Positions 21,544-41,560 of a stretch of DNA of 41,560 nt are shown here, piece by piece; position 1 is the first letter of the stretch; every line of letters starts with the position of its first letter. Made by a program: the position numbers and the translations under genes. The DNA lies in IMG/VR virus record IMGVR_UViG_3300000353_000002, positions 1 to 41,560 of that record. One strand, given 5' to 3'. The notes beneath the pieces are model-generated. The model ran no database searches. It saw only the letters and a list, made by a program, of their open reading frames with translations, and had not been told where the DNA came from. The stretch is from a virus.

Positions 21544-21545
21544 AT

Positions 21546-21799: not shown

Positions 21800-21800
21800 A

Positions 21801-21870
21801 GGTTGTATATGATAAATGGTTGCCAATATCGGTAAATTCATCGATAAACCCATTTATCGTACCTACAACC
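21801..21870 (+). other. Long RNA hairpin between tRNAs
   Basis: GGTTGTA...GATAAATGG pairs with CCATTTATC...TACAACC (16 bp with an internal loop). A small inner stem TATCG/CGATA can form. It begins two bases after the encoded CCA of tRNA-Val, so it may be a processing or stability element. Confidence 0.45.
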
Positions 21871-21879
21871 GATAAATTA

Positions 21880-21961
21880 CCCTTTGTGGTGGAATTGGTA
21901 TACACGCATGTCTTAGGAACATGTGCCGAAAGGATTGAGAGTTCGAGTCTCTCCAAAGGGA
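21880..21961 (+). tRNA. tRNA-Leu(UAG)
   Basis: Acceptor CCCTTTG/CAAAGGG, anticodon loop CTTAGGA closed by CATGT/ACATG, Leu-type D-arm (GGTGGAATTGGTATACACG), variable arm GCCGAAAGGATT, T-arm GAGAG TTCGAGT CTCTC. Confidence 0.93.
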
Positions 21962-22011
21962 CAAAGTAGTTCGTGGAAGAGCATCTACTATAAAAATAGC
22001 GATTCTGTCAT

Positions 22012-22086
22012 GGGGCGGTAGCATAGTCTGGCTAATGCGTCTGTTTTGCAAGCAGAAGACCACGGGTTCAAATCCCGTCCGTTCCA
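22012..22086 (+). tRNA. tRNA-Ala(UGC)
   Basis: Anticodon loop TTTGCAA closed by TCTGT/GCAGA. Acceptor GGGGCGG/CCGTTCC with two G-U pairs. T-arm ACGGG TTCAAAT CCCGT. Confidence 0.92.
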
Positions 22087-22101
22087 CTAAAATTCTTTAT
22101 T

Positions 22102-22299
22102 ATGAAAACAGAAATCAAAAAAAGACTTTACAAAGAAAAACCTGAAGCATTATTTTCTCATATAAAAATGGGAACAGCGTATTATTATTGTAAATTAGAT
22201 GAAGAAACATTAATATTTGAAATTCCTGTTTCAGATATGGGTGAAGCTCAATTTGGGTCAAGAATGGAAGCACAATTATTAATTAGGTGGTTAGTTTAA
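22102..22299 (+). CDS. Unknown 65-residue protein
   Basis: MKTEIKKRLYKEKPEALFSH opens a small alpha/beta protein with a TAYYYCKLDEETLIFEIPV strand pair and a C-terminal EAQLLIRWLV helix. It lies between tRNA-Ala and tRNA-Leu, ten bases before the latter. The family is not recognised. Confidence 0.7.
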   Translation: MKTEIKKRLYKEKPEALFSHIKMGTAYYYCKLDEETLIFEIPVSDMGEAQFGSRMEAQLLIRWLV

Positions 22300-22308
22300 C
22301 CACCAAAT

Positions 22309-22390
22309 GGGGATGTGCTGGAACTGGTAGACAGGACGGTCTAAGAAGCCGTTGCAGCAATGCGTGTGGGTTCGAGTCCCACCATCCTCA
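22309..22390 (+). tRNA. tRNA-Leu(AAG)
   Basis: Class II body: acceptor GGGGATG/CATCCTC, D-arm GCTGGAACTGGTAGACAG, anticodon loop CTAAGAA giving AAG, variable arm with GCAGCAATGC, T-arm GTGGG TTCGAGT CCCAC. A34 in a bacterial Leu tRNA is unusual and would need editing to inosine to read CTC. Confidence 0.85.
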
Positions 22391-22393
22391 CAA

Positions 22394-22477
22394 GCGAGAA
22401 ACTGTGGGGTTGATATTCCTCCCATTAGGGGATATCCTCTAAGATTCAGGTGTGCGCACACTGTCTTAGAGTCTCGC
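22394..22477 (+). ncRNA. Three-way-junction structured RNA, not a tRNA
   Basis: Closing stem GCGAGA/TCTCGC. Arm 2 is GATATTCCT/GGGGATATC (9 bp, two G-U pairs, about a 7-base loop CCCATTA). Arm 3 is CTCTAAGA/TCTTAGAG (8 bp) topped by GTGT-GCGC-ACAC. There is no T-loop or anticodon, and no coding potential. It sits between two tRNAs and would be released by their processing. Confidence 0.6.
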
Positions 22478-22491
22478 AACCAATTAAAGAT

Positions 22492-22565
22492 AGTCCTATA
22501 ATCCAATTGGCAGAGATAACGGTCTTAAACTCCGTACAGTCTGAGTTCGAATCTCAGGGGGACTA
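22492..22565 (+). tRNA. tRNA with UAA anticodon but class I body
   Basis: Acceptor AGTCCTA/GGGGACT (6 of 7), anticodon loop CTTAAAC (UAA) closed by ACGGT/TCCGT, T-arm CTGAG TTCGAAT CTCAG. The variable loop is only 5 bases (ACAGT), whereas Leu tRNAs normally have a long arm. It is called Leu by anticodon, and charging is uncertain. Confidence 0.78.
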
Positions 22566-22595
22566 CAAATAGGGTTAATATTAATATTTAAATTT

Positions 22596-22669
22596 GGGGT
22601 CGTAGTGATAACTGGCTAACACGATGCGCTTGCACCGCATAAATGGGGAATCATACTCCCTCGACTCCA
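22596..22669 (+). tRNA. tRNA-Ala(UGC) with non-canonical T-loop
   Basis: Acceptor GGGGTCG/CGACTCC, anticodon loop CTTGCAC closed by ATGCG/CGCAT, T-stem GGGGA/TCCCT closing ATCATAC in place of TTCGAAT. Confidence 0.68.
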
Positions 22670-22705
22670 CAACAACATTAGGTTCAAAACCCAAACACTC
22701 CACTT
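22670..22705 (+). other. Extra tRNA 3'-half fragment
   Basis: Directly after the Ala tRNA lies a T-arm-like TTAGG TTCAAAA CCCAA followed by ACACTCCA, which could pair in part with the same GGGGT acceptor strand. It looks like a leftover or alternative 3' half. Confidence 0.3.
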
Positions 22706-22715
22706 TTTAATTCCA

Positions 22716-22724
22716 AGTATTTAT
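22716..22724 (+). promoter_or_regulatory. Late-promoter-like motif
   Basis: AGTATTTATGATAAAA, 23 bases before the membrane-protein gene. Confidence 0.55.
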
Positions 22725-22738
22725 GATAAAATTTAATT

Positions 22739-23206
22739 ATGTTAACAATGATTTTATTCGCTTTAATGGTATCTGTATTTATTTCATATGTAGCATATAT
22801 TATTTTTAAATACGGTATTCAAAAAAGTATTTCAGAAAGTTATTATGTATTACCTAAGAAATTAAACTTTTTATTTGTACTCTTTACTTGGTTATTTGCA
22901 ATACCAGCAATGTTTTTAGGTAATAGTTTACTTATGTTTTTTGCTGGTGGTGGTATTGTTTGGGTTGGAGCAAATGCTGCAATGCATAAAAATCCAACAA
23001 GAACAATTCATTTAATCGCAGCGATTGGTGGTATGATATTAGGTGGATTAGCAATGATATTTCAATATCATATGTGGTATATGACAGCAGGAGTAGCAGG
23101 ATTATTACCAATTCTTTATTTAGTTGATAAAAAACATTTTATGTTCTGGGCTGAATTGGCAGTTTTTATTGCAATAACAATCACATTAGGTGTTAATATT
23201 TTTTAA
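22739..23206 (+). CDS. Unknown multi-pass membrane protein (155 aa)
   Basis: About five hydrophobic segments: residues 1-25, 45-65, 66-80, 92-112 and 115-152, with short basic loops (KKLNF, HKNPTRT, DKKH). No catalytic motif is seen. It lies in the tRNA array with its own late-type motif, followed by a perfect palindrome. It may be an inner-membrane phage protein of unknown role. Confidence 0.78.
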   Translation: MLTMILFALMVSVFISYVAYIIFKYGIQKSISESYYVLPKKLNFLFVLFTWLFAIPAMFLGNSLLMFFAGGGIVWVGANAAMHKNPTRTIHLIAAIGGMILGGLAMIFQYHMWYMTAGVAGLLPILYLVDKKHFMFWAELAVFIAITITLGVNIF

Positions 23207-23228
23207 TTCTCCAGACATGTCTGGAGAA
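23207..23228 (+). terminator. Perfect 22-base palindrome after the membrane-protein gene
   Basis: The palindrome (TTCTCCAGACA and its complement) starts right after the TAA at 23204-23206. No T tract follows, so it is a hairpin that may only pause transcription or mark a processing site. Confidence 0.5.
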
Positions 23229-23235
23229 TTCATAC

Positions 23236-23314
23236 ACGTCCGCATTCATCGGTGAGATAAGCAGTCTCCAAAACTGTGCCGAAAGGTCTGCTGGTTCGAT
23301 TCCAGCCGGGCGTG
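23236..23314 (+). tRNA. tRNA-Trp(CCA) with long variable arm
   Basis: Acceptor ACGTCCG/CGGGCGT, anticodon loop CTCCAAA closed by GCAGT/ACTGT, T-arm GCTGG TTCGATT CCAGC. The variable region GCCGAAAGGTCT is 12 bases and can form CC-GAAA-GG, unlike normal Trp tRNAs. Confidence 0.9.
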
Positions 23315-23319
23315 CTTTT

Positions 23320-23352
23320 TTTGTAACAATCCTTGTTTTTCTACGTATAATT
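23320..23352 (+). promoter_or_regulatory. Promoter-like sequence of the TTGTAACA type
   Basis: TTTGTAACAATCCTTGTTTTT then CTACGTATAAT. It closely matches the sequence upstream of leader C (TTTGTAACA, CTTGTTTTTCT, CGTATTTAT) and lacks a perfect TAnnTTTG. Confidence 0.5.
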
Positions 23353-23382
23353 ATTTAATTTAGCAATCAATAATTTAATATT

Positions 23383-24123
23383 ATGTATATAATTTCAAAA
23401 AATAAAGATTATTATGATGGTGTTGTCGGTACAGTAGGTATTGATAAAACTATTGTATATGAACGTGCTGAAAAAGAAATTGAAGAAAAAACTGAATTTC
23501 CAGAACCATTTAAATATAAAAGAACATATGGAATTTATAGTGAAAATGATAGTTCTTTTGTTAGATTAGGTGATTTTGGAACAAAAAAAGATAGTAAATA
23601 TTTTAATAATTCTTTTTTTGTTATTGGATTTTGCGGTAAACTTTATTTGGGTTGGAGAATGTTTTATAACGTAAAAAAATTTAATCCAGAACTCGGAATA
23701 CATGAAGATATTCCTAAATTTAAAATAATTTATGGATTTGATAATGTGAGTGATGATTTAAATAATAGTCGTTGGGGTAAAAATCTATATGATACCGTTC
23801 AATATGTTTTGACATACGACCCTATTGAAATTTTTAGAACAGTAAATGCTCCTGTATTCATATATGATAGTGGTATTGACTTAAATTATAACACATATCT
23901 TAGTAATAAGAAAAGTGTTTTTATTATAAATCCTGTACTTAAAGACTATGAATTTTACAAAGTAGTAGATGCATTCACTGCATTTCAAGAAATTCAAATG
24001 TTTATTGCAGGGGTTTTAGGTATTGGTGAAAAAGAAATTATTGAAGTAGAAGATAAATATAAAATTCCTCAACATGGCTTTGATAAATGGAGTTTTAGAA
24101 AAGAACCAACTAAAAAGAAATAA
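23383..24123 (+). CDS. Conserved phage protein of unknown function (246 aa)
   Basis: Begins MYIISKNKDYYDGVVGTVGID and ends with a GFDKWSFRKEP motif. The centre has VIGFCGKLYLGW. I recognise this layout from proteins of other large phages and giant viruses, always without function. It has no membrane segment or known catalytic motif. The next gene starts one base after the stop, so it is the first of a four-gene group ending before the tmRNA. Confidence 0.8.
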   Translation: MYIISKNKDYYDGVVGTVGIDKTIVYERAEKEIEEKTEFPEPFKYKRTYGIYSENDSSFVRLGDFGTKKDSKYFNNSFFVIGFCGKLYLGWRMFYNVKKFNPELGIHEDIPKFKIIYGFDNVSDDLNNSRWGKNLYDTVQYVLTYDPIEIFRTVNAPVFIYDSGIDLNYNTYLSNKKSVFIINPVLKDYEFYKVVDAFTAFQEIQMFIAGVLGIGEKEIIEVEDKYKIPQHGFDKWSFRKEPTKKK

Positions 24124-24124
24124 A

Positions 24125-24541
24125 ATGGCTTACATGAATGATGAAAAAACGAGAAGGATGCGTGATTTAATTGAAAGAGAAAGAGCATTGAAACGAAAAA
24201 TTGAAACTGATAAATCACACCAGTTATTAAAAAATTTAGATGATGATTATGATTATAAAGATAGAAATGATAATATCCCTCAATCACCTTCTTCAAGAGA
24301 AAATGACCTTCATCTTAAAATAAGTGTTTTAACAAGTGAAAATCAAAAATTAAAGACACAATATTCTGATTTAATTAAAAAAACTAACTTATTAATTGAT
24401 GCTTATCGAAAATTAGAAACTGAAAATACTAAACTTAAAACAAAAAAAGAAAAACGTGAATCTTGGGATAATTTCCTTCGTGGTTTATGGGAAGGCGTTA
24501 ACAATTTAACGAAAAAAATAATTGTATGGTTTAATACATAA
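24125..24541 (+). CDS. Coiled-coil protein (138 aa)
   Basis: The start is set at 24125 (MAYMNDEKTRRMRDLIERER) because the frame upstream overlaps the previous gene. The sequence is almost entirely charged helix. A heptad-like stretch from about residue 58 to 105 (LKISVLTSENQKLKTQYSDL) suggests dimerisation. It ends in a short amphipathic helix, NLTKKIIVWFNT. No family is recognised. Confidence 0.72.
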   Translation: MAYMNDEKTRRMRDLIERERALKRKIETDKSHQLLKNLDDDYDYKDRNDNIPQSPSSRENDLHLKISVLTSENQKLKTQYSDLIKKTNLLIDAYRKLETENTKLKTKKEKRESWDNFLRGLWEGVNNLTKKIIVWFNT

Positions 24542-24543
24542 AA

Positions 24544-24723
24544 ATGAAAAAAATAAAATCAAAATACGCAAATAAAATAGTTAATTCGAAACCTTATTTA
24601 CTGTTAATAGTGAATAATGATGAAAATAAACCAAAGAAGTTGACGAGAGAAGAATTCGAAGCAGGAGAAGCAGGTTTAGTGTATTATGATAATGAAACAG
24701 GTAAATTAATATTTGATGAATGA
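24544..24723 (+). CDS. Unknown 59-residue protein
   Basis: Starts 2 bases after the coiled-coil gene: MKKIKSKYANKIVNSKPYLL, ending VYYDNETGKLIFDE. Small basic N-terminus, acidic C-terminus. It overlaps the next gene by 8 bases. Tight spacing supports real translation. Confidence 0.62.
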   Translation: MKKIKSKYANKIVNSKPYLLLIVNNDENKPKKLTREEFEAGEAGLVYYDNETGKLIFDE

Positions 24724-24979
24724 AGAAATTAAAAGTATAGATATAATACCTGCAATCTTTTTAAATTATAGAGAAGATGGTAATGTATTATTGAAGTGTT
24801 TACAAGGCACTGAAACAGTTAATAGAGCATTTGAACCTAATTTAATTCAAGGAATTGAAAATCCAAACTATTTATTTATTGGTTTAAAAACTGGTCAAAA
24901 TATGATGGAAATAACTGTTAAAGATGCTAGTGAATATGAAGAAATGTTTAATGATAAATGGAGTTTATTATTAAGTTAA
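24716..24979 (+). CDS. Unknown 87-residue protein
   Basis: The ATG at 24716 is preferred over TTG 24713. The sequence contains IPAIFLNYREDGNVLLKCL and YLFIGLKTGQNMMEI, consistent with a small beta-barrel. It is the last gene before the tmRNA, which starts two bases after its stop. The function is unknown. Confidence 0.65.
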   Translation: MNEEIKSIDIIPAIFLNYREDGNVLLKCLQGTETVNRAFEPNLIQGIENPNYLFIGLKTGQNMMEITVKDASEYEEMFNDKWSLLLS

Positions 24980-24981
24980 TC

Positions 24982-25345
24982 GGGGGTGAAAGGTATTGAC
25001 AGGATGTAGAATGGTAATGTAAGCAAGTAGTGGTTTGTATAAGTTCACTTAAAACAAATGTTCAAACAATAAACGCAGAAGACATTATGTCTATTCCAAC
25101 TTCTCTAACAAGAGGAAAAAACGTATTTGCGAAGAATGTTGAACTTGCATTTGTAGCGTAGGAATAATAAAAGAAATCAACAAACCTTCTGTAAATTTTG
25201 AGATTTTAGTGATTACTCAAAAGGCGTAGAAGTTAAACTCAGGCAAAATCATTATATTTTTGGAAAGTAAGAAAACTTTATCCTAAACTTGTAGAAATCT
25301 TATTAATCACATGGCTGGACGGCAATTCGAATTTGCCCACCTCCA
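24982..25345 (+). ncRNA. ssrA: tmRNA
   Basis: Both tRNA-like ends are present: GGGGGTG at the 5' end pairs with CACCTCC at the 3' end, with T-arm GGCAA TTCGAAT TTGCC just before it and the GGACGGCAATTCGAAT block. The internal part has the usual AAACAATAAACGCA resume region. The resume codon is GCA at 25075, and the tag frame runs to TAG at 25159-25161, encoding 28 residues that start AEDIMS and end ELAFVA. Bacterial tags usually end in ALAA. Phage tmRNAs are known in large phages. It rescues stalled ribosomes in trans-translation. Confidence 0.95.
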
Positions 25346-25366
25346 CAACATTTTTCTTATCTCCAC

Positions 25367-25375
25367 AGTATTTAT
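25367..25375 (+). promoter_or_regulatory. Late-promoter-like motif before HNH gene
   Basis: AGTATTTATC, 26 bases before the start codon. Confidence 0.5.
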
Positions 25376-25392
25376 CATTAAATACTTGAGAT

Positions 25393-25962
25393 ATGGAAAA
25401 AAAATATAAAAGGAAAAGTAAAAAAATTATTTGTGATTGTTGCGGAAATACATTTGAAAAAGCAATATCAGAAATAAAAAGAACTGAAAAAAATAATGGT
25501 AAACATTATTGTAGCTTAACATGTTCAGGAACAAAAAATATTAATAATTTAGGTGAATATAAAGGGAATGTTGAAAATTTTAGAAAAAAAACTAAAGGCA
25601 AAAGAGACAAATATACTGGTTTTAGAGATTTTATTAGAAGGGCAAGACAAAGAAATAAATTGGGTAATTTAACTTTAGATGATTTATTGGTGCAATGGGA
25701 TTTACAAAAAGGTTATTGTCCATATACTGGAATTAAATTAAAATTACCTAAATATAATAGGAAATATGAAAAATTATTTGAATTAGCATCGTTAGATAGA
25801 ATTGATTCAAATAAATTATATGAAAAAGGTAATGTTATGTTTGTAAGTACACCAATAAATTATATGAAAAATTCAATGACTAAAAATGAAACAATTGAGT
25901 ATTGTAAAATAATAACATCATTTTGGAATGATAATACAAATAAAGGGACGAATAAAACTTAA
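25393..25962 (+). CDS. HNH-type homing endonuclease
   Basis: 189 residues. An N-terminal zinc finger (CDCCGNTF...CSLTC) and the core CPYTGIKL (about 113-120), ASLDRIDSNKLYEKGNVMFVS (in outline) and NYMKNSMTKNE match the 'C-P-x-T-G / S-L-D-R-I-D / G-N-v-x-f-v' HNH subfamily found in phages. It lies immediately after the tmRNA with a late-type motif, as the other nucleases lie next to tRNAs. Confidence 0.9.
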   Translation: MEKKYKRKSKKIICDCCGNTFEKAISEIKRTEKNNGKHYCSLTCSGTKNINNLGEYKGNVENFRKKTKGKRDKYTGFRDFIRRARQRNKLGNLTLDDLLVQWDLQKGYCPYTGIKLKLPKYNRKYEKLFELASLDRIDSNKLYEKGNVMFVSTPINYMKNSMTKNETIEYCKIITSFWNDNTNKGTNKT

Positions 25963-26041
25963 AGAAAGTTTGCAAACATACATAACTGGACTTCATGGGA
26001 AAGGTTATGAAAAAATCATCTTAGACCGTTTCGGAGCGTGA
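25928..26041 (+). CDS. Small ORF (37 aa) overlapping the HNH 3' end
   Basis: An ATG in another frame opens MIIQIKGRIKLKESLQTYIT, and the ORF ends EKIILDRFGA. The composition after the HNH stop looks protein-like, not random, so it may be a remnant of a gene end displaced by the HNH insertion, or a real small gene. Confidence 0.4.
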   Translation: MIIQIKGRIKLKESLQTYITGLHGKGYEKIILDRFGA

Positions 26042-26047
26042 CCGATA

Positions 26048-26521
26048 ATGATTACTTTAAGAAAGTCCCTTTTTAATTTTGAATATATGAAAACAAGAAA
26101 TATTGAAGAAATCAAACAAGACATTGATAAATGGTTTAAATCTGAAGCAGGTCAAAAATATTTTTATGATTTAACTGAAAAACATAAAATATTAGAACAA
26201 AGATTTTTACGTTTTGAAAAATGGTTAATTGACCATGATTTTGATAAATTAATGTATCGTTTAATTAATGAACATAATGATGATTATATTGAAAAATGTT
26301 ATCATAATGGTTATCAGCCATATCCAAACAATAAATTAAGTTTTGTTATTAGTTATGTGACAAGAAATAATGCACATCCTATTAATGTGAAAAAACTTAA
26401 ATCTGATTTTCCTAATGATATATGGGAATTTAAAGGTTATTATTTTCAATTAATTTATGGTCAGGGCACATTAATTCGTATTTACAATAAAGATGATATG
26501 AGATTATTATTACAGTTATGA
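26048..26521 (+). CDS. Unknown 157-residue protein
   Basis: Helical, charged N-terminal half (NIEEIKQDIDKWFKSEAGQK) and a beta-rich C-terminal half with WEFKGYYFQLIYGQGTLIRIY. ATG 26048 or ATG 26087 (MKTRNIEEIK) may be the true start, and the second is the better protein start. It overlaps the next gene by 4 bases. No family is recognised. Confidence 0.7.
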   Translation: MITLRKSLFNFEYMKTRNIEEIKQDIDKWFKSEAGQKYFYDLTEKHKILEQRFLRFEKWLIDHDFDKLMYRLINEHNDDYIEKCYHNGYQPYPNNKLSFVISYVTRNNAHPINVKKLKSDFPNDIWEFKGYYFQLIYGQGTLIRIYNKDDMRLLLQL

Positions 26522-26838
26522 AAAAAATTAAAGAACATAATAAGTTAGTTAGAGATAATATTCCTGATATATTAAAAAATAAAGGTATTGAAGTTAATTC
26601 ACATATTGCCGATAATAATGAATATGAAAATGAATTATATTTAAAATTACAGGAAGAATTAGAGGAATTCATACTTAAACCCAGCAGTGAAGAACTTGCT
26701 GATATGTTAGAGGTAATTGATGCAATAAGAATCTTTCATAATATTAGTCTTGATGAATTAAAAAAACAAAAAATTAATAAAAAGAAAGAACGTGGTGGAT
26801 TTAAAAAGAAAATTATTTTAGATACCACAGAAGAATAA
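26518..26838 (+). CDS. MazG/HisE-like nucleotide pyrophosphohydrolase
   Basis: 106 residues. EHNKLVRDNIPDILKNKGIE (6-25), LQEELEEFI (about 63-71) and EELADMLEVIDAI (about 78-90) give the E-x-x-E...E-x-x-D metal-binding pattern of all-alpha NTP pyrophosphatases. The end KERGGFKKKIIL is typical of the phosphoribosyl-ATP pyrophosphohydrolase-like subgroup common in bacteria and phages. It may sanitise nucleotides or lower alarmone or NTP pools. Coupled to the previous gene by a 4-base overlap. tRNA-Leu follows 3 bases after the stop. Confidence 0.87.
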   Translation: MKKIKEHNKLVRDNIPDILKNKGIEVNSHIADNNEYENELYLKLQEELEEFILKPSSEELADMLEVIDAIRIFHNISLDELKKQKINKKKERGGFKKKIILDTTEE

Positions 26839-26841
26839 TAT

Positions 26842-26927
26842 GGCGCAGTGACGTAATCGGCAGCCGTGCTGGACTTAAAATCCAGTGAGTAGAAATACTC
26901 GTGCGGGTTCAAATCCCGCCTGCGCTA
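26842..26927 (+). tRNA. tRNA-Leu(UAA)
   Basis: Class II body with variable arm GAGTAGAAATACTC, anticodon loop CTTAAAA closed by CTGGA/TCCAG, acceptor GGCGCAG/CTGCGCT, T-arm GCGGG TTCAAAT CCCGC. Confidence 0.95.
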
Positions 26928-26941
26928 CAATAAAATTAATA

Positions 26942-27295
26942 ATGACAAAAGAAATTAACATAAAATTAGACACTAAAAAAGTTGGTGAATATACTATCGA
27001 GGATATGAAAAAAATGTTCTGTAAAAGAATATCTAAAGCAGTTTTTGAAAATAAAACAGATAATTGTAGAATATATGAGGGGTTAATTGCTAAAGAAATG
27101 TCTAAAATATGTAAACGATGGAAATTTTGGAATAAAGATATTCGTAATGCATATAAAAATTATAATGGACTTATATTAGCACCTTACACCATCGTATGTG
27201 AAGATGTTGAAGTTTTTTGTGACAATATGATTATTACTAAAGAATTAAAAAGTAGATATAAAATAAGACATATTGATAATGAAAAAAACGATTAA
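26942..27295 (+). CDS. Unknown 117-residue protein
   Basis: The start is set at 26942 (MTKEINIKLDTKKVGEYTIE), because the longer frame runs through the tRNA. A basic alpha/beta protein with Cys at several places (MFCKRI, DNCRIYE, KICKRW). No family is recognised. Its end overlaps the next small gene by 17 bases. Confidence 0.68.
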   Translation: MTKEINIKLDTKKVGEYTIEDMKKMFCKRISKAVFENKTDNCRIYEGLIAKEMSKICKRWKFWNKDIRNAYKNYNGLILAPYTIVCEDVEVFCDNMIITKELKSRYKIRHIDNEKND

Positions 27296-27395
27296 AGCAG
27301 TTAGACCAAAAGATGATGATTGTGGGTGTGGTAGACGTGTAAAAAGAACAAAAAAAAGAAAACTGGTATATAAGAAAAAAGTTAAGAAACGTTAA
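27279..27395 (+). CDS. Very basic 38-residue protein
   Basis: MKKTIKAVRPKDDDCGCGRR, then a Lys/Arg-rich tail ending KKKVKKR. It has a Cys-x-Cys pair and would bind nucleic acid if made. It overlaps the previous gene by 17 bases, and its stop is followed at once by tRNA-Leu(CAA). Confidence 0.5.
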   Translation: MKKTIKAVRPKDDDCGCGRRVKRTKKRKLVYKKKVKKR

Positions 27396-27469
27396 CCCCA
27401 GATGATGGAACTGGTATACGTGTTCGTTTCAAAAGCGAAATTTTGTGGGTTCGAATCCCACTCTGGGGA
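27396..27469 (+). tRNA. tRNA-Leu(CAA), short variable loop
   Basis: Acceptor CCCCAGA/TCTGGGG, anticodon loop TTCAAAA closed by TTCGT/GCGAA, T-arm GTGGG TTCGAAT CCCAC, Leu-like D-arm GATGGAACTGGTATACGTG. The variable loop is only 5 bases (ATTTT). Confidence 0.83.
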
Positions 27470-27486
27470 CTATTTATTAATAAATT

Positions 27487-27633
27487 ATGAAAAGAAAATT
27501 ATTACAAAAAATGGCTGATTTTATTGTTAATAAAATAAAAAATGCTGAAACAATGAAAGCAGTAATAATTTGGTTTAATATCGGAATGGAAATTAATTCC
27601 AGATTAGTTAATAATGATAATTACTTAAATTAA
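27487..27633 (+). CDS. Small 48-residue ORF
   Basis: MKRKLLQKMADFIVNKIKNA, then a hydrophobic AVIIWFNIGMEI segment. Helical, possibly membrane-associated. It is followed by an 8-codon ORF (27641-27667) and a hairpin (AACGCA/TGCGTT, 27666-27687). Confidence 0.45.
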   Translation: MKRKLLQKMADFIVNKIKNAETMKAVIIWFNIGMEINSRLVNNDNYLN

Positions 27634-27694
27634 AACTACTATGAAAGAAAAATTTAAAGTTCTATAACGCAACTCTAATGGTGCGTTTGAGAAC

Positions 27695-27997
27695 ATGAAA
27701 GTAAAAAAAATCTTAGACACTACCACAAATCGTGGTGAATTTAATCGTGCTTATAAAAGATATTTAGAGCATAGAAAAAATGGTATTCATTGTTCATATT
27801 GTAAATATCATCGAAATGAAAACCAAGACCATAAATGGTATGGTGGTTTTGTTGATGATGAAGACGAAAATATAAGGTATCCTAGTTGGAAACTTGTTAG
27901 TAAAAACAGAAAACAATGGATGAAAAAAGACATTAGAATTAGTGAGGTAAAATCAACTCGCATTTCTAAAAGAAAATATATCGACATTACTTGGTAG
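27695..27997 (+). CDS. Unknown 100-residue protein with CxxC
   Basis: MKVKKILDTTTNRGEFNRAY; then HCSYCKYHRNENQDHKWYGG (about 32-51), a possible Cys2His2 metal site; then PSWKLVSKNRKQWMKKDIR, a basic nucleic-acid-binding-like tail. The family is not known to me. The stop lies in the loop of a 9-bp hairpin. Confidence 0.68.
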   Translation: MKVKKILDTTTNRGEFNRAYKRYLEHRKNGIHCSYCKYHRNENQDHKWYGGFVDDEDENIRYPSWKLVSKNRKQWMKKDIRISEVKSTRISKRKYIDITW

Positions 27998-28006
27998 TGT
28001 CGATAT
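27978..28006 (+). terminator. Hairpin overlapping the gene end
   Basis: ATATCGACA pairs with TGTCGATAT (9 bp) around a loop containing the TAG stop. The T tract after it is weak, and tRNA-Met follows 7 bases later. Confidence 0.5.
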
Positions 28007-28012
28007 TTATAT

Positions 28013-28085
28013 AGCGAGGTAGCTTAGTGGCTAAAGCATCGGAGTCATAACCCGAAGACCGAGGGTTCAAATCCCTCTCTCGCTA
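28013..28085 (+). tRNA. tRNA-Met(CAU)
   Basis: Acceptor AGCGAGG/TCTCGCT, anticodon loop GTCATAA (CAU), T-arm GAGGG TTCAAAT CCCTC. A1-U72 is paired, so it is not an initiator. Ile2 (lysidine) cannot be excluded from sequence alone. Confidence 0.87.
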
Positions 28086-28100
28086 CTAATTTCCAACATG

Positions 28101-28639: not shown

Positions 28640-29005
28640 ATGACAAAAATTGCGTATAAATTATTTAGACAATTAAAATCTGGTGAAATAACATCACTAT
28701 TCATTAATAGACAGCAAAAGTTAAATATTGGTGAATGGATGGAAAGTGAAAATCATCCAACTACTGGTTTTGCTATTAGAGAGGGTTGGCATTGCACTGC
28801 TGAACCACATGCACCGCATTTAAAAATGAAATTAAGTAATGGTGAGGTTAGGGTTTGGAAAAAAGTATTAATCGAAGACTATTCTGAATTTAAAAGACCT
28901 GAAAATCAAGGTGGTTTATGGTATCTTGCAAAAAAAATGTTAATATTAGATGATAATGTGATAAAATTAATTGAAAATCATAAATTAAATGAAATTATTA
29001 AATAA
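28640..29005 (+). CDS. Conserved phage protein of unknown function (121 aa)
   Basis: The start is set at 28640 (MTKIAYKLFRQLKSGEITSL), because the upstream part of the frame contains the promoter. REGWHCTAEPHAPHLKM (about 47-63), RVWKKVLIEDY and RPENQGGLWYLAKKM form a pattern I recognise from many phage proteins with no function assigned. TATCTTTG 25-32 bases upstream is a probable promoter. It overlaps the RNA ligase by 17 bases, so the two are coupled. Confidence 0.75.
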   Translation: MTKIAYKLFRQLKSGEITSLFINRQQKLNIGEWMESENHPTTGFAIREGWHCTAEPHAPHLKMKLSNGEVRVWKKVLIEDYSEFKRPENQGGLWYLAKKMLILDDNVIKLIENHKLNEIIK

Positions 29006-30080
29006 AGTCGACTGGAATACTTTAAATCATTATATTGATAATAATTTAATTGTTGCAAATAAACATCCAGAATATAACATATGGATTCTTAATTATAGTC
29101 CTAAAGCACAATCAAAAAGATTTTGGGATGAATATACTATGGCTTGTCGTGGTATGGTTGTTGATGCCGATGGAAATATTTTAGCACGTCCATTTCAGAA
29201 ATTTTTAAATTTTGAAGAACACGACCCATCTGATATTGATTTATCGCAAGATTTTGATATTTTTGAAAAAATGGATGGTTCATTGATTATATTATTTTAT
29301 TATGATTTATATAAAATATGGATTGTTGCATCGAGAGGTTCATTTATTTCTGAACAATCAATTGTTGCAAAAAAAATGCTTGAGTCTAAAAACAATGTTT
29401 ATTTTAAATTAAATAAAAAGTGTACGTATTTGTTTGAAATAATTTATCCTGAAAATAGAATTGTTGTTGATTATGGTGATTTAAGAGATTTAATTTTATT
29501 AACTAGAATTGAAACCAGTACTGGTTTTGAATTATTTTATAAAGATTTAGTTGGTAAATATTCTGATTTTTTTACTGTTGTAAAAAAACATAAAGTTAAT
29601 AATATTAATAAATTAAATGAACTCAAAGAACTTGAAGAAGAAAATCGTGAAGGATTTGTAATTAGATTCTTTAGTGGGTTTAGAGTTAAAGTTAAATTTA
29701 CTGAATATGTAAGATTACATGGTATTTTAACAAATGTTTCAAACCTAACTGTTTGGGAACACTTGTTAAATAATTATGATTTTGATGAATTATTCGATAG
29801 AGTACCTGATGAATTTTATGATTGGTTAAGACGAACAATAACTAAATTACAAAATAAATATAATGAAATCGAAAGACTGTCATTATTAGAGTTTGTAAGG
29901 ATTTATCATGTTAATAATATTGTTAGTCGTGCTGAATTTGCTGAACAAGCAAAAGAATCAGATTATCGTGCAATACTATTTAAATTATATGATAAAAGAC
30001 CTTATGATGAAATTATTTGGAAAATGATTAGACCAGTCTATAGTAAACCGTTTGCTGACGGATATAATCCAATTATTTAA
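28989..30080 (+). CDS. T4 Rnl1-type RNA ligase
   Basis: 363 residues, near the 374 of T4 RNA ligase 1. The nucleotidyl-accepting lysine is in FEKMDGSLI (Lys94, motif I). ACRGMVVDADGNILARPFQKF (51-71, in outline) precedes it. YLFEIIYPENRIVVDY is motif IIIa, EGFVIRF motif IV (about 221) and VKVKFTEYVR motif V (about 232). Rnl1 seals broken tRNA anticodon loops in T4 after PrrC attack. Here it lies between two tRNA arrays. No polynucleotide kinase/phosphatase partner is visible in the window. A strong terminator follows. Confidence 0.94.
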   Translation: MKLLNKVDWNTLNHYIDNNLIVANKHPEYNIWILNYSPKAQSKRFWDEYTMACRGMVVDADGNILARPFQKFLNFEEHDPSDIDLSQDFDIFEKMDGSLIILFYYDLYKIWIVASRGSFISEQSIVAKKMLESKNNVYFKLNKKCTYLFEIIYPENRIVVDYGDLRDLILLTRIETSTGFELFYKDLVGKYSDFFTVVKKHKVNNINKLNELKELEEENREGFVIRFFSGFRVKVKFTEYVRLHGILTNVSNLTVWEHLLNNYDFDELFDRVPDEFYDWLRRTITKLQNKYNEIERLSLLEFVRIYHVNNIVSRAEFAEQAKESDYRAILFKLYDKRPYDEIIWKMIRPVYSKPFADGYNPII

Positions 30081-32601: not shown

Positions 32602-32694
32602 ATGACAACTTTTAGAAAATATTATTACGGTAAAAAATCTTATAAGAAGTATCTTATACGAATCGGGATTATTATGTCTAAAGTTATGATATAA
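32602..32694 (+). CDS. Leader peptide C (30 aa, Lys/Tyr-rich)
   Basis: Residues 6-17 read KYYYGKKSYKKY: ten of twelve are Lys or Tyr, using AAA and AAG for Lys and TAT and TAC for Tyr. The array downstream encodes Lys(CUU), Lys(UUU), a Lys-like tRNA and Tyr(GUA), which read these codons. GAATCGGG within the ORF (codons 19-22) is complementary to the terminator 5' arm. It is probably the sensor of attenuator C. Confidence 0.85.
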   Translation: MTTFRKYYYGKKSYKKYLIRIGIIMSKVMI

Positions 32695-32750
32695 AAGTAA
32701 TGACTTTATAACAAATTTAAAGCCCGATTCGAAAGAGTCGGGTTTTTTTT
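32659..32750 (+). terminator. Attenuator C
   Basis: Segment 1 CGAATCGGG (32659-32667), segment 2 CCCGATTCG (32723-32731), segment 3 GAGTCGGG followed by T8 (32735-32750). The antiterminator pairing 1:2 (9 bp, perfect) is better than the terminator 2:3, which contains a G-U pair. Confidence 0.82.
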
Positions 32751-32757
32751 GTTATAT

Positions 32758-32948: not shown

Positions 32949-33032
32949 GCATCAGTAGCTCAGTTGGCAGAGCAAGGGAACGCATTTGCTATTCTTAATC
33001 CCTGCGCACGGGTTCGAGTCCCGTTTGGTGAC
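32949..33032 (+). tRNA. tRNA-Lys(CUU) with a 12-base insertion in the anticodon arm
   Basis: D-arm GTAGCTCAGTTGGCAGAGC, T-arm ACGGG TTCGAGT CCCGT. The anticodon stem AGGGA/TCCCT is intact, but between the 5' strand and the loop TTCTTAA lie 12 extra bases, ACGCATTTGCTA (32980-32991), containing a GCA-TT-TGC mini-repeat. Without them the tRNA would be an ordinary Lys(CUU). Acceptor GCATCAG/TTGGTGA has a 1-72 mismatch. Confidence 0.75.
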
Positions 33033-33050
33033 CAACAGTCAATGTGAAAT

Positions 33051-33125
33051 GACCTCTTAGCTCCTAATTGGTAGAGCAACTGGCTTTTAACCAGTGGGTT
33101 CTGGGTTCGAATCCCAGAGGGGTCA
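33051..33125 (+). tRNA. tRNA-Lys(UUU)
   Basis: Acceptor GACCTCT/AGGGGTC, anticodon loop CTTTTAA closed by ACTGG/CCAGT, T-arm CTGGG TTCGAAT CCCAG. Confidence 0.95.
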
Positions 33126-33131
33126 CAACTT

Positions 33132-33204
33132 GCGTTCGTAACTCAGTTGGTAGAGTATCGCACCTTTAATGCGAGAGTCGGGGGTTCGAGTCCTACCATC
33201 CCCA
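33132..33204 (+). tRNA. Lys-like tRNA with unmatched acceptor (chimeric or decayed)
   Basis: The 5' half is tRNA-like (GTAACTCAGTTGGTAGAGT; anticodon stem TCGCA/TGCGA, loop CCTTTAA, anticodon UUU with C33). The 3' half GGGGG TTCGAGT CCTAC CATCCCC does not pair with the 5' acceptor strand GCGTTCG (3 of 7), but closely resembles the 3' half of tRNA-Leu(AAG) at 22309. Confidence 0.5.
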
Positions 33205-33209
33205 CAAAT

Positions 33210-33289
33210 GAGAGTGTTGAGCAATTGGTGGCTCGCCAGATTGTAGGTCTGGTTCTTCGGACTTGGGGGTTCGAATCCCTCCACTCTCA
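33210..33289 (+). tRNA. tRNA-Tyr(GUA)
   Basis: Acceptor GAGAGTG/CACTCTC, anticodon loop TTGTAGG closed by CCAGA/TCTGG, class II variable arm TTCTTCGGACTT as normal for bacterial Tyr, T-arm GGGGG TTCGAAT CCCTC. Confidence 0.94.
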
Positions 33290-33290
33290 C

Positions 33291-34392: not shown

Positions 34393-37300
34393 ATGATAAA
34401 AAAAAACAGAAAAACCTACACTAAAGAACAAGTCGAAAAATCAACTCTACCCTATTTTAATAATGACCAATTAGCTACTGATGTCTGGATAAGAAAATAT
34501 TGTTTAAAAGATAATGACAATTATTACGAATTAAATCCAGATGACATGCATTGGAGATTAGCAAATGAATTTGCAAGAATAGAATCTAAATATCCTAATC
34601 CGCTATCAGCAAAAGAAATTTATGAAACAATAAAGAAATTTAAAAGAATTGTTCCACAAGGTGGTTCAATGTCTGGTATTGGTAATGACTATCAAATCGT
34701 ATCATTATCCAATTGTTTTGTAATTGGAAACAATAAAGATAGTGATAGTTATGGTGGTATTTTAAAATTAGACCAAGATATGGTTCAACTCCAAAAAAGA
34801 CGTGGTGGTGTTGGATTGGATTTGTCTTTTGTTCGCCCTAAAGGAAGTCCTGTAAAAAATAGTGCTATATCAAGTACAGGTATTGTTCCTTTTATGGAAA
34901 GATATTCAAATAGTACTAAAGAAATAGCACAAGATGGACGTAGAGGTGCATTAATGGAAAGCATTTCTATTATACATCCTGATTCTGAAGACTTTATTGA
35001 TGCTAAAATGGTTAATGGTCAGGTTACAGGTGCTAATGTATCTGTAAGACTGACAGATGAATTTATGAAAGCAGCAAAATATGAATATTCTTTTAAACAA
35101 AAATATCCTATCGATAGTAATGAACCTAAGTACAGTAAAGATATTAACCCAACTGCTCTTTGGAAAAAAATAATTCATAATGCATGGAAATCAGCCGAAC
35201 CCGGTATATTATTTTGGGACAAAGTAATTAATGAGAGTATTCCTGATTGTTATGCCGACCTCGGTTTTAGAACAACGAGTACTAATCCTTGTTTCCCTGC
35301 ATCAGAATATTTATTAACTGAAAAAGGATATTTTAAATTTGGAGATTTGGTTACAATAGATTTAAATAAAACAAACAATGTTGTTTGTGATAAAAGAATT
35401 TCGTATGTTAATGATGGTGAAGAAAAACCTGAAAATTGGAAAATTAATAATGATGAATTCGGTACTGTTGTTAGAAAAGCAAGCAATGTATTTTTAACAA
35501 AAAAAGAAGCTGAAATTATTGAAATAAAAACATCAAAAGGTTTCAAATTAAGATGTACATTAGACCATCATATTGCTACTACAAAAGGTATGATTGAAGC
35601 AAAAGATTTAACACCTAATGATAATATTTTAATAGCGATTCCAGAAAATAATGGAACTATTATTAATAAAAAATCTGAAACAAAATTGGAGATGTTGAGT
35701 TTATTATTAGGATTACTTCAAGGTGATGGAACTTTAGATAAAAAAAGAAAAAGAATATATTTTGAGTTTTGGGGTGACGATGCCGAAAGAATGAAAAATA
35801 TGGTTTGTGAAATCATCGATAACCTATATGAAATTTATGGTGAACGTAAAAATAATAAAAATAGAAATCTAAGTAAATATTTCGTTTCACATAAAAATAA
35901 TAAAATTAGAATTGGAAGTGCTTGGATAGGAAAAATTTTCGAAGAACAAGGATTTAATTTTAAAAATAAATTTCATATACCTGAATTTATTTTTAATAAT
36001 TCAAGTAATAATATCGGTAAATTTTATGTTGCTGCATTAATGTATTCTGATGGTAGCCTTCAAGGAAGTATCAAATCAGGATATACAATAAGATTATCAC
36101 AAAGTAATGAAGACTTCTTAAATAAGATTCAAATGATATTACATTCAAATGGATTAATTTTTGGGATTTATAAAAGACGTGATTCTAAATTAACTGAACT
36201 TCCAAATGGAAAGGGTGGTAGATTTAAATATAAAACCAAAGACCAATTTGAATTAATTAGTCTTGGTGGAAGCATTGTTAATTATATGTCATCAATCGGA
36301 TTTTTAGGTGATACTAATAAAGAAAATAAATTTAATAATACTCATAATTATCAAATAAAAAAATCATTTACTGATAATATTATTAATGTAACATTATTAG
36401 AAAATGAACCAGTTTTTTGTTTAAAAGAAGATATTGGTAGGAATATTATAGTTAATGGAATATCAGCACGAAGATGTGGTGAAATACCTTTGTGTCCTTA
36501 TGATAGTTGTAGATTATTGGCAATAAATTTATTCGGATATGTTGTAAATCCATTTACTCCCGAAGCATATTTTGATTCAGAACTATTCAGAGAAGATGTG
36601 ATTAAAGCAATGCGATACATGGATGACCTTATTGATTTAGAAATTGAAAAAATTGATGGAATCCTTGCTAAGATTAAATCAGACCCCGAAGAAGAATTTA
36701 TTAAATTATATGAACTTAATCTCTGGACTAAAATCAGAGAAAAAGCAATCGAAGGTCGTAGAACGGGTTTAGGTGTTACTGCTGAAGGCGACATGCTTGC
36801 TGCGTTAGGATTAACATATGGTACTGATGATGCTAATGATTTTAGTGAAGATATTCATGAAAAATTAAAATTATATGCTTATGAATCATCAGTTAATTTA
36901 GCTAAAGAACGTGGCGCATTCCCAATATATGATTGGAAACGTGAAAAAGATAATCCGTTCATATTGCGAATTAAAGAAGCCAATCCTGAGTTATATGATA
37001 AAATGGTTAAGTACGGAAGAAGAAACATTGCATTATTAACAATTGCTCCTACTGGAACAGCAAGTCTTATGACCCAAACAACATCAGGAATCGAACCAGT
37101 TTTCTTACCTGTGTATAAGAGAAGAAGAAAAATTAATCCACAAGAAAAAGATATTCAAATTGATTTTATTGATGATGAAGGTATTGCTTGGAAAGAATAT
37201 CTTGTTTTTCACTATAATTTCGAAACATGGTTAGAAGCAAACGAATATGATGTTGAAGTGGTTAGAACCATGACAGAAGAACAAGTTGATGAAATAGTAA

Positions 37301-38148
37301 AAAAATCACCTTATTATAAAGCTACTTCAAATGATGTGAATTGGGTTAAGAAAGTTGAAATGCAAGGTCGTATTCAAAAACACGTAGACCATAGTATTTC
37401 AGTAACAGTTAACTTACCTGAAAACGTTAGTGAAGACCTTGTTCGTCAAGTATATGAAACAGGATGGTCTGCTGGTTGTAAAGGTATGACAGTTTATCGT
37501 GAAGGTTCGAGAAGCGGTGTATTGGTTTCTAATGAAAAGAAAAAAGAAGAAAAACTTCCTGAAGAAATTCATGCTCCAAAAAGAGGTAAGAGATTAAAGG
37601 CAGAAATTTATAGATTTCAAAATAATCTTGAAAAATGGATTGCTGTTGTTGGAATGAAAGATGGTCATCCATATGAAATTTTTACAGGTAAATTTGAAAA
37701 TGGATTAAGTGATTTACCTTCAACTTTAAAAGAATGTGAAGTAGTAAAAAATATTATTGAAACAGAGGAAACAGATGAGTTCGGCAATACAACCAAAGTA
37801 AAAAGAAAAAGATATGATATTGAATACGTTGATAAAGATGGTGAAAAACATGTACATACGGGTTTAAATCATGCTTTTGACCCTGAGTATTGGAATTATG
37901 CCAAATTTATTTCTGGTGTACTAAGACATAAAATGCCGTTAGTATATGTGTATGAATTGGTTGATTCTTTAACATTTAAAGAAGACCATATTAATACATG
38001 GAAAAACGGTGTTGCTCGTGTAATAAAAAGATTTATTAAAGACGGAGAAAAAGGCAGTGGTACTTGTCCTATATGTGGTAGTAATGATTTACAATATAAA
38101 GAGGGTTGTCTGATTTGCATGGGATGTGGAAACAGCAAATGTGGATAA
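34393..38148 (+). CDS. nrdJ: Class II (adenosylcobalamin) ribonucleotide reductase with intein
   Basis: 1251 residues. Host part: SLSNCFV (about 104-110) with the first redox Cys; the LQKRRGGVGLDLSFVRPKGS loop (134-152 region); TSTNP then, after a 395-residue insert, CGEIPLC with the thiyl-radical Cys at 695; a TIAPTGTASLMTQT substrate/effector loop; and a C-terminal Cys4 ribbon (CPICG...CMGCGNSKCG), typical of NrdJ. It makes dNTPs without oxygen dependence, using B12. The insert (300-694) is an intein with a LAGLIDADG endonuclease, placed exactly before the catalytic Cys. Expressed from its own promoter, with a terminator after it. Confidence 0.95.
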   Translation: MIKKNRKTYTKEQVEKSTLPYFNNDQLATDVWIRKYCLKDNDNYYELNPDDMHWRLANEFARIESKYPNPLSAKEIYETIKKFKRIVPQGGSMSGIGNDYQIVSLSNCFVIGNNKDSDSYGGILKLDQDMVQLQKRRGGVGLDLSFVRPKGSPVKNSAISSTGIVPFMERYSNSTKEIAQDGRRGALMESISIIHPDSEDFIDAKMVNGQVTGANVSVRLTDEFMKAAKYEYSFKQKYPIDSNEPKYSKDINPTALWKKIIHNAWKSAEPGILFWDKVINESIPDCYADLGFRTTSTNPCFPASEYLLTEKGYFKFGDLVTIDLNKTNNVVCDKRISYVNDGEEKPENWKINNDEFGTVVRKASNVFLTKKEAEIIEIKTSKGFKLRCTLDHHIATTKGMIEAKDLTPNDNILIAIPENNGTIINKKSETKLEMLSLLLGLLQGDGTLDKKRKRIYFEFWGDDAERMKNMVCEIIDNLYEIYGERKNNKNRNLSKYFVSHKNNKIRIGSAWIGKIFEEQGFNFKNKFHIPEFIFNNSSNNIGKFYVAALMYSDGSLQGSIKSGYTIRLSQSNEDFLNKIQMILHSNGLIFGIYKRRDSKLTELPNGKGGRFKYKTKDQFELISLGGSIVNYMSSIGFLGDTNKENKFNNTHNYQIKKSFTDNIINVTLLENEPVFCLKEDIGRNIIVNGISARRCGEIPLCPYDSCRLLAINLFGYVVNPFTPEAYFDSELFREDVIKAMRYMDDLIDLEIEKIDGILAKIKSDPEEEFIKLYELNLWTKIREKAIEGRRTGLGVTAEGDMLAALGLTYGTDDANDFSEDIHEKLKLYAYESSVNLAKERGAFPIYDWKREKDNPFILRIKEANPELYDKMVKYGRRNIALLTIAPTGTASLMTQTTSGIEPVFLPVYKRRRKINPQEKDIQIDFIDDEGIAWKEYLVFHYNFETWLEANEYDVEVVRTMTEEQVDEIVKKSPYYKATSNDVNWVKKVEMQGRIQKHVDHSISVTVNLPENVSEDLVRQVYETGWSAGCKGMTVYREGSRSGVLVSNEKKKEEKLPEEIHAPKRGKRLKAEIYRFQNNLEKWIAVVGMKDGHPYEIFTGKFENGLSDLPSTLKECEVVKNIIETEETDEFGNTTKVKRKRYDIEYVDKDGEKHVHTGLNHAFDPEYWNYAKFISGVLRHKMPLVYVYELVDSLTFKEDHINTWKNGVARVIKRFIKDGEKGSGTCPICGSNDLQYKEGCLICMGCGNSKCG
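35290..36474 (+). other. Intein with LAGLIDADG endonuclease inside nrdJ; C-terminal HN replaced by RR
   Basis: Residues 300-694 of the reductase. Block A is CFPASEYLLTEKGYFKFGDL (Cys1). Block B is LRCTLDHHIAT (Thr389, His392). The two endonuclease motifs are LLLGLLQGDG (437-446) and YVAALMYSDGS (545-555). Block F is EPVFCLKED, and block G is NIIVNGISARR followed by the +1 Cys. The penultimate His and terminal Asn expected for splicing are Arg-Arg here. Confidence 0.88.
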
Positions 38149-41018: not shown

Positions 41019-41049
41019 TTTGGTATTAATGTAACATTTTATATCTTTG
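41019..41049 (+). promoter_or_regulatory. Bacteroidota-type promoter of leader unit D
   Basis: TTG at 41020-41022, a 19-base spacer, then TATCTTTG at 41042-41049, with GTAACATTTT in the spacer and CACGTATTTA downstream. Confidence 0.82.
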
Positions 41050-41097: not shown

Positions 41098-41229
41098 ATG
41101 GAAACAAGAAACATAAATAGTATTATTTCGTCAACGACAATTATTAGTCGCAATGGGAATAGTATATTCTGTTCAAATTTTGGCAGAGATATGAATTCGG
41201 GTACTGGTTTTAATGATATTAGAATATAA
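41098..41229 (+). CDS. Leader peptide D (43 aa: Ile, Asn, Ser, Thr, Arg, Gly, Phe, Cys)
   Basis: Residues 3-30 consist only of Thr, Arg, Asn, Ile, Ser, Gly, Phe and Cys, with varied codons (Thr ACA/ACG, Ser AGT/TCG/TCA, Arg AGA/CGC, Gly GGG/GGC, Phe TTC/TTT). These are exactly the eight amino acids not covered by leaders A-C. The first tRNAs downstream are Cys(GCA) and a probable Ile(GAU). TTCGGGT in the ORF matches the terminator. It is probably the sensor of attenuator D. Confidence 0.83.
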   Translation: METRNINSIISSTTIISRNGNSIFCSNFGRDMNSGTGFNDIRI

Positions 41230-41283
41230 GAAAGAATCGTTTAAAAAAATCAAAAACCCGAAGCATAAGTTTCGGGTTTTTTT
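41196..41283 (+). terminator. Attenuator D
   Basis: Segment 1 TTCGGGT (41196-41202), segment 2 ACCCGAA (41256-41262), segment 3 TTCGGGT followed by T6 (41271-41283). The terminator 2:3 is 10 bp with A/T flanks, and the antiterminator 1:2 is 7 bp. Confidence 0.8.
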
Positions 41284-41292
41284 ATGCATAAA

Positions 41293-41339
41293 ATTATAAG
41301 TGCCAAGACTTATAATCATAAAAAATAAGGTTTGGCACT
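41293..41339 (+). promoter_or_regulatory. Two mutually exclusive hairpins before boxA
   Basis: ATTATAAGT/ACTTATAAT (41293-41316, 9 bp, loop GCCAAG) and AGTGCCAA/TTGGCACT (41299-41339, 8 bp) share bases 41299-41301 and overlap, so only one can form fully. Confidence 0.45.
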
Positions 41340-41342
41340 AAT

Positions 41343-41359
41343 GTTCTTTGACATGTTGG
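41343..41359 (+). promoter_or_regulatory. boxA-like antitermination site, unit D
   Basis: GTTCTTTGACATGTTGG, identical to the copy in unit B over all 17 bases. Confidence 0.65.
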
Positions 41360-41435
41360 TTTAGGTAATCAGGTAAAACTACCTGCACGTGGTGATTACT
41401 GCACAATCTATGATTGACTAAAGTTTTACATATAT

Positions 41436-41516
41436 GCACGTATTGCTGAGTGGTCAAAAGCGTTGCTCTGCAAAAGCAATCCGAAAGGTTCGGGGGTTCG
41501 AATCCCTCTACGTGCT
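41436..41516 (+). tRNA. tRNA-Cys(GCA) with long variable arm
   Basis: Acceptor GCACGTA/TACGTGC, anticodon loop CTGCAAA closed by TTGCT/AGCAA, T-arm GGGGG TTCGAAT CCCTC. The variable region TCCGAAAGGTTC is 12 bases and can form CC-GAAA-GG. Normal Cys tRNAs have 4-5 bases here. Confidence 0.88.
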
Positions 41517-41519
41517 CAA

Positions 41520-41560
41520 CATTGGGATGTATCACCTCTGCCTGATAAGCAGTAGAAAGT
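41520..41560 (+). tRNA. Probable tRNA-Ile(GAU), cut by window edge
   Basis: An anticodon stem CTGC/GCAG with loop CTGATAA gives GAU. The 5' part appears short for a normal D-arm, and the 3' half is outside the window. Confidence 0.45.

Follow-up and report, generated by a model that had tools for sequence, protein, structure and literature searches.

Why phages carry tRNA genes has been disputed for decades, the opposing explanations being compensation for codon usage and replacement of cleaved tRNAs (PMC10264068). The viral DNA analysed here (below, the window: a whole IMG/VR record of 41,560 bases) raises this question at a particular locus. Its tRNA genes fall into four groups (arrays A–D), a short open reading frame (ORF) lies ahead of each group, and it has to be asked whether these leaders control the tRNAs that follow them and, if so, which signal they would answer.

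The Window and Its Relatives

The record stops at position 41560, inside array D, and a 36-base stretch near the 3′ end of the window had no match in an exact scan. The window encodes a T4-type large terminase; there is no near DNA match to it among named phages, and the closest protein matches (tblastn) are found in T4-like phages (32–34% identical). Relatives were collected via the VWA protein encoded immediately upstream of leader D, the searches yielding 15 loci with a single-sequence query and 53 loci with an alignment query; records of the close group are up to 365 kb long, so that the phages of this clade count as huge. The core set comprises 42 leaders in 13 related records. These leaders are homologous, and the genomes are not independent samples.

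The window also harbors a tmRNA gene within the tRNA region (24982–25348, + strand; Rfam RF00023, 78 bits), i.e., a further component of ribosome-stall rescue on the phage, and, at 34393–38148, a gene for the large subunit of ribonucleotide reductase with an intein bearing a LAGLIDADG homing endonuclease domain.

Leader Peptides and tRNA Arrays

The leaders, their promoters and terminators, and the arrays all lie on the + strand. Leader A (13674–13730, MKTIINIVQQPQQHPIGF), whose [PHQ]-rich character is conserved in relatives, features Pro, His and Gln and precedes array A (14412–15617; Pro, Pro, His, Gln, Gln). Leader B (19035–19121, MKNLLDILMVVLDAVLWAADEDRLYSVG) features Asp, Leu, Glu, Val, Ala, Trp and Met; array B (19283–28086) comprises Asp, Glu, Val, Leu, Ala, Trp and Met tRNAs with small genes interspersed, an Asp(GTC)-like tRNA at about 19285 and a Trp(CCA) anticodon at 23235–23314 being read by eye. 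Leader C (32602–32694, MTTFRKYYYGKKSYKKYLIRIGIIMSKVMI) is distinguished by Lys and Tyr, and array C (32949–33290) by Lys and Tyr tRNAs at 32949, 33051, 33132 and 33210. The first of these tRNA-like genes (32949–33032, 35 bits) shows an apparent insertion of ~12 nt in the anticodon arm before the CTT (Lys) loop, possibly an intron or the sign of a degenerate copy. Leader D (41098–41229, METRNINSIISSTTIISRNGNSIFCSNFGRDMNSGTGFNDIRI) features Cys, Ile, Asn, Ser, Thr, Arg, Gly and Phe. It is followed by tRNA-Cys(GCA), the first gene of array D (41436–41517), and by a tRNA-Ile(GAU) gene truncated to its 5′ part at the end of the window (41523–41560, anticodon loop CTGATAA), which is homologous to a complete tRNA-Ile in the nearest relative (L005:16012–16088).

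The original prediction, made from the sequence alone, held that the clustered residues of the four leaders form disjoint sets totalling 20 amino acids, that residues 3–30 of leader D all belong to its eight, and that leader D is followed by a Cys tRNA and then by one resembling Ile(GAU). All three claims held: the ORFs are present where it had placed them, and the residues of leader D comply in 28 of 28 cases. At the codon usage of the window (42.6% for that set), the chance of such a run is ~4e-11, with the caveat that the set was picked after looking. Speaking of clustered residues is itself a selection: pooled over relatives, other residues make up ~45% and ~52% of the sensor segments of the A and C leaders, respectively. 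Yet this selection was vindicated, the arrays carrying exactly those sets.

Bacteroidetes-type promoters, as pattern matches to TTTG-N19-TATCTTTG, were located ahead of leaders A (13601–13631), B (18921–18951) and D (41019–41049). Across relatives, the promoter-like TANNTTTG is present no more than 105 nt upstream in 62 of 67 leaders, as compared with 0.08 of random windows, so the promoter-like sites are an established feature of these leaders. As sites of the form TTTG-N19-TANNTTTG are Bacteroidetes-type, the host probably belongs to that group, albeit only by inference.

The Leader–Array Match in Related Phages

A further part of the original prediction was that the array cut off at 41560 would continue with Ile, Asn, Ser, Thr, Arg, Gly and Phe tRNAs and none of the other twelve amino acids. 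The phage's own downstream DNA is absent from the record, but the relatives support the positive half of the claim. In L005, Cys is followed by Ile(GAU), Ser(UGA) and Asn(GUU) (anticodons read by eye), whereupon the contig ends; in all relatives reaching further, the D arrays are composed of the predicted amino acids, e.g., Thr-Cys-Ile-Ser-Asn-Phe-Phe-Gly-Thr-Ile-Asn-Asn-Thr-Arg-Arg-Arg-Arg-Gly in L013. The conserved motif of the D leader was retrieved by a DNA scan from 19 viral stretches, and those examined lie upstream of Cys-containing D arrays; the single bacterial match (Foetidibacter luteolus) has no tRNAs nearby and was treated as chance.

When each tRNA in the 13 records was assigned to the nearest upstream leader, 55 of 56 tRNAs in the A arrays fell within {P,H,Q}, 125 of the 126 identified in the B arrays within {D,E,V,L,A,W,M}, all 44 in the C arrays within {K,Y}, and 146 of 163 in the D arrays within {C,I,N,S,T,R,G,F}. 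Conversely, every one of the 42 core leaders contains every amino acid of its own array's set. The match of leaders and arrays in their amino acids is thus shown directly. The exclusion of the other twelve amino acids held nearly, not strictly, in the relatives: the D-array exceptions, most of which can be accounted for, are one Pro, three initiator Met, five tRNAs with a CUA anticodon, one with UUA, three unassigned, and four annotated as Met(CAT) that represent tRNA-Ile2, a tRNA with a CAU anticodon that reads AUA as Ile. The latter assignment comes from a tree in which four of the seven D-array Met(CAT) genes group with E. coli tRNA-Ile2(CAU) and three with the initiator tRNA; the tree rests on few columns, though the classes separate.

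Some exceptions are concentrated in one genome, G011, with Phe in array A and Pro in array D. Its C leader looks decayed: promoter and terminator persist, but all that is left of the ORF is a KKYY-like remnant lacking ATG. Nor could a Lys tRNA be identified in this genome. The G011 tRNA-Tyr was considered as having joined array B, which would have been a third case of covariation; this was rejected in view of its own terminator and the decayed C leader.

The CUA (amber) tRNA recurs near the end of the D array (G002, G003, G004, G006, G009, G013, G015), often beside Ser(GCU) or the initiator tRNA. Recoding of TAG as its explanation was rejected: TAG still ends 5–25% of long ORFs, and there is no clear excess of open frame beyond it.

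These findings bear on the simplest objection, namely that the leader sets are a product of chance or of selective reading. In its favor, the sets were chosen by eye, and the A and C leaders do hold other residues. However, the prediction was met in relatives lying outside the sequence on which it was made, and by these the objection is already refuted; we regard it as all but excluded.

More distant VWA relatives with tRNA arrays (31–39% identity) lacked a convincing leader. Large mixed tRNA arrays of this kind were seen in G012, G030, L158, L163, L168 and L170, the sequence of G012 breaking off shortly before its array; the leader candidates of G030 and G012 were judged to be chance. The system may therefore be limited to one clade.

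Natural Rearrangements of Leaders and Arrays

Within the clade, two genomes have redistributed the amino acids. In G024 (VWA 46% identical), tRNA-Trp resides in array D, not in B; its D leader (...NRSNWCGN...) contains W, and its B leader does not, while the other B leaders have W and most of their arrays hold Trp. In G028 (VWA 59% identical), the code is split three ways, into {R,L,Q} and two other sets: the leader MKTVTSILRLRQRRQRLLQRSQ... precedes Arg, Arg, Leu, Leu, Leu, Gln and Gln tRNAs, the leader ...QFYWGVPTTNPTTDGDG... precedes His, Tyr, Thr, Asp, Pro, Trp and Gly tRNAs, and the third leader precedes Ala, Glu, Leu, Ser and Cys tRNAs. One exception is the His tRNA of the second array, without H in its leader. 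In the window, G024 and G028 alike, enrichment is highest for each leader's own array, so that the comparison matrix is dominated by its diagonal.

Since the leaders changed along with the arrays, the rule that the leader equals the array survives a change of partition. That the match has a function is inferred from sequence, and the rearrangements are the weightiest evidence for it. The division into four sets belongs to this clade and is not a law, given Trp in array D of G024 and the three different sets of G028: the leader–array principle is general in the clade, the four-way split of 20 is not universal.

Codon Choice in the Leaders

For Gln, Glu, Lys, Arg, Gly and Phe, the leaders combine codon classes above the expectation from genome usage. 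The classes mixed in the leaders and rarely mixed in the genome are CAA + CAG, AAA + AAG, GAA + GAG, CGC/CGT + AGA, and GGC + GGA/GGG; for instance, CGC occurs in 9 of 12 D leaders but accounts for only 1 of 110 Arg codons in five window genes. This mixing fits the sensing of separate isoacceptors. It does not hold for Ala, and no correlation was seen by eye between the presence of a Thr(GGU) tRNA and ACC/ACT codons in the D leader. Some of the C/G-rich codons (CCC in A, CTCGAC in B) might serve RNA pairing instead.

Terminators and Antiterminators

In all four leaders of the window, an intrinsic terminator follows the ORF and precedes the first tRNA: terminator A at 13776–13806 (AAACCCCGTTC/GAACGGGGTTT, then a T run), B at 19152–19187 (AAACCCGACT/AGTCGGGTTT, then a T run), C at 32719–32752 (AAAGCCCGATTC/GAGTCGGGTTTT, then a T run) and D at 41252–41287 (AAAAACCCGAAGC/GTTTCGGGTTTTT). 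In the following, the 5′ and 3′ arms of the terminator are called regions 3 and 4. A copy of the 3′ arm, called region 2, sits in every leader in the last part of the ORF or at its stop codon: TGAACGGG in A (13728–13735), which pairs with the terminator 5′ arm, AGTCGGGT in B (19112–19119), CGAATCGGG in C (32659–32667) and TTCGGGT in D (41196–41202). Being such a copy, region 2 can pair with the terminator 5′ arm in place of region 4.

The complementarity is well above background, the upstream complement to the 5′ arm having a median score of 20.8 as compared with 10.0 for 176 other terminators of the same phages (P ~2e-23). Moreover, when the 5′ arm of each leader was compared with those of its homologues from other genomes, region 2 made the better fit to its own in 58 of 66 cases (P 3e-9), which amounts to covariation across three elements; e.g., GAACGGG in leader A of the window corresponds to GAATGGGG in homologues, with both arms changed. 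An antiterminator can also be formed in all three G028 leaders. Terminators, complementarity and covariation alike are thus features shown in the sequences.

Another view holds that the leaders are functional small peptides, the match with the arrays being a mere bias of composition. This view can invoke the conserved SRNGxxIFCS core of the D leaders. Against it, composition follows the array, including the shift of W and the {R,L,Q} leader; the C-terminal residues (EWG, IGN, SVG over region 2) are set by RNA pairing; and other leaders in one and the same genome, though alike in base composition, show enrichment for different sets. We consider it very unlikely.

The geometry is that expected of attenuators: from the last sensor codon to region 2, the medians are 8–12 nt. 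This is approximately the distance from the A site to the leading edge of the ribosome. With the upstream RNA masked, regions 2 and 3 are predicted to pair in 41 of 42 leaders at a stage when region 4 has yet to be transcribed. In the complete RNA, the free-energy minimum is the terminator in nearly all leaders; therefore, the antiterminator must win kinetically. A protector hairpin between regions 1 and 2 is only weakly supported overall: in B it beats both codon controls (P ~0.03–0.05), in A and D only the synonymous controls, and in C neither control. A universal 1:2 hairpin was accordingly rejected as unsupported across the leaders. In the C and D leaders, the stop codon is mostly 13–31 nt beyond region 2; hence, a ribosome waiting there would leave part of region 2 exposed, and the off state would depend on timing. 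The repressed state of C and D likely relies on the ribosome pacing the polymerase, and this is the weakest part of the mechanism.

These weaknesses leave some room for the opposite polarity, in which stalling promotes termination, or leader translation blocks the terminator, the leaders being general sensors of growth rate or translation. The terminator as the stable fold in nearly all leaders and the inconsistency of the 1:2 hairpins support this reading. However, in every leader, region 2 comes directly after the sensor codons, a position from which it can antiterminate only if the ribosome has stalled upstream, and a general sensor needs no tracking of composition, whereas these leaders track their arrays even after rearrangement. 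Opposite polarity is, in our opinion, unlikely.

Proposed Mechanism and Its Possible Trigger

Taken together, it is very likely (with a probability of roughly 0.83) that each array is a tRNA operon under trp-type ribosome-mediated transcription attenuation, although stalling, readthrough and the trigger are inferred, with no expression data. According to this model, a ribosome would translate the leader behind RNA polymerase. As long as the tRNAs needed for the leader are all charged and plentiful, the ribosome would cover region 2 while regions 3 and 4 are made, the 3:4 terminator would form, and the tRNAs of the array would not be transcribed. If any one of these tRNAs is missing, cleaved or uncharged, the ribosome would stall at an upstream sensor codon, leaving region 2 free to pair with region 3, the 5′ arm of the terminator, and allowing readthrough into the array that supplies the missing tRNA. 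Between them, the clade's four operons would keep watch on all 20 amino acids, in many cases on both codon classes of an amino acid. The likely benefit would be the on-demand replacement of limiting tRNAs, e.g., upon their depletion by host anticodon nucleases or host shut-off.

As to the signal, an RNA ligase of the T4 Rnl1 family is encoded between arrays B and C (28989–30080, + strand; PF09511, E=1.4e-18; phrog_562), and a ligase of this family lies 1.4–5.2 kb upstream of leader C in every placeable relative record except G016. T4 Rnl1 repairs cleaved tRNA, and the family also attaches tail fibres. In published work, phage tRNAs have been shown or argued to be able to offset the cleavage of tRNAs by the host (PMC10264068, PMC11555353). 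The ligase and these reports therefore suggest, without showing it, the loss of tRNA during infection as the signal.

A possible, though less likely, alternative retains the same attenuators but takes the signal to be host amino acid starvation, i.e., uncharged tRNA in place of lost tRNA. Whether an amino acid is short or its tRNA is lost, the ribosome would stall at the codon, so the two are mechanically indistinguishable; besides, the classical leaders (trp, his, ilv) answer to charging. On the other hand, the operons yield tRNAs and not biosynthetic enzymes, so starvation would not be relieved; the leaders sample several codon classes, rare codons included, as befits isoacceptor sensing; and an Rnl1-type RNA ligase is present in the region, with the reservation about tail fibres already made.

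A bolder version of the tRNA-loss reading would see here a complete self-correcting tRNA supply in a clade of huge phages, where a few attenuators divide the 20 amino acids and, in many cases, their codon classes, sense the loss of any single tRNA and induce only the array that replaces it, countering the tRNA-cleaving defences of the host. For this version, the grounds for doubt seem to us slightly to outweigh those for belief.

Comparison with Known Systems

The closest parallel to the proposed attenuation is found in the attenuators of amino acid operons (trp, his, leu, ilvGMEDA, thr, pheST), with which the phage leaders share a short leader ORF, clustered cognate codons, an intrinsic terminator before the first gene, and an antiterminator sequestering the 5′ arm of the terminator. 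Unlike them, the phage arrays would regulate tRNAs and small interspersed genes, without the biosynthetic or synthetase targets that are common in, not defining of, the known systems; a phage leader covers up to eight amino acids, the leaders jointly covering 20; and, as opposed to trp-type attenuators, support for a 1:2 protector hairpin is weak and inconsistent. No match to Rfam amino acid operon leaders (Trp, His, Leu and similar) was obtained in the Rfam scan of the window. T-box riboswitches are comparable in sensing tRNA charging and in their control by antitermination, but the phage would sense via a translated ORF, and tRNA genes, not synthetase or biosynthesis genes, lie downstream; scanning the entire window against Rfam (E<=0.1) yielded no T-box family.

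Phage tRNA arrays replacing cleaved host tRNAs (PMC10264068; PMC11555353) resemble the present ones in the large tRNA sets and in depletion by host defence as a possible driver, a likeness to which the T4 Rnl1-family ligase next to the arrays also belongs; the arrays of the window's clade differ in carrying putative sensors of their own. Leaders, attenuation and operon control are not discussed in the eLife paper on phage tRNA arrays, and no precedent for a leader peptide or attenuation controlling tRNA operons or phage tRNAs was found in the literature searched, most subscription journals being outside it.

In kind, then, this is a known device, the leader-peptide attenuator; what is new, to the extent that this could be established, is its target, the breadth of each leader and the coverage of every amino acid. 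It would be the first leader-peptide attenuation of tRNA operons in the literature searched, and a regulatory system whose sensors split the whole amino acid set among themselves. The phage DNA itself appears to state when each tRNA set is wanted, namely when translation is stalled for lack of it, and, if this is true, the purpose of phage tRNAs becomes directly testable via the leaders.
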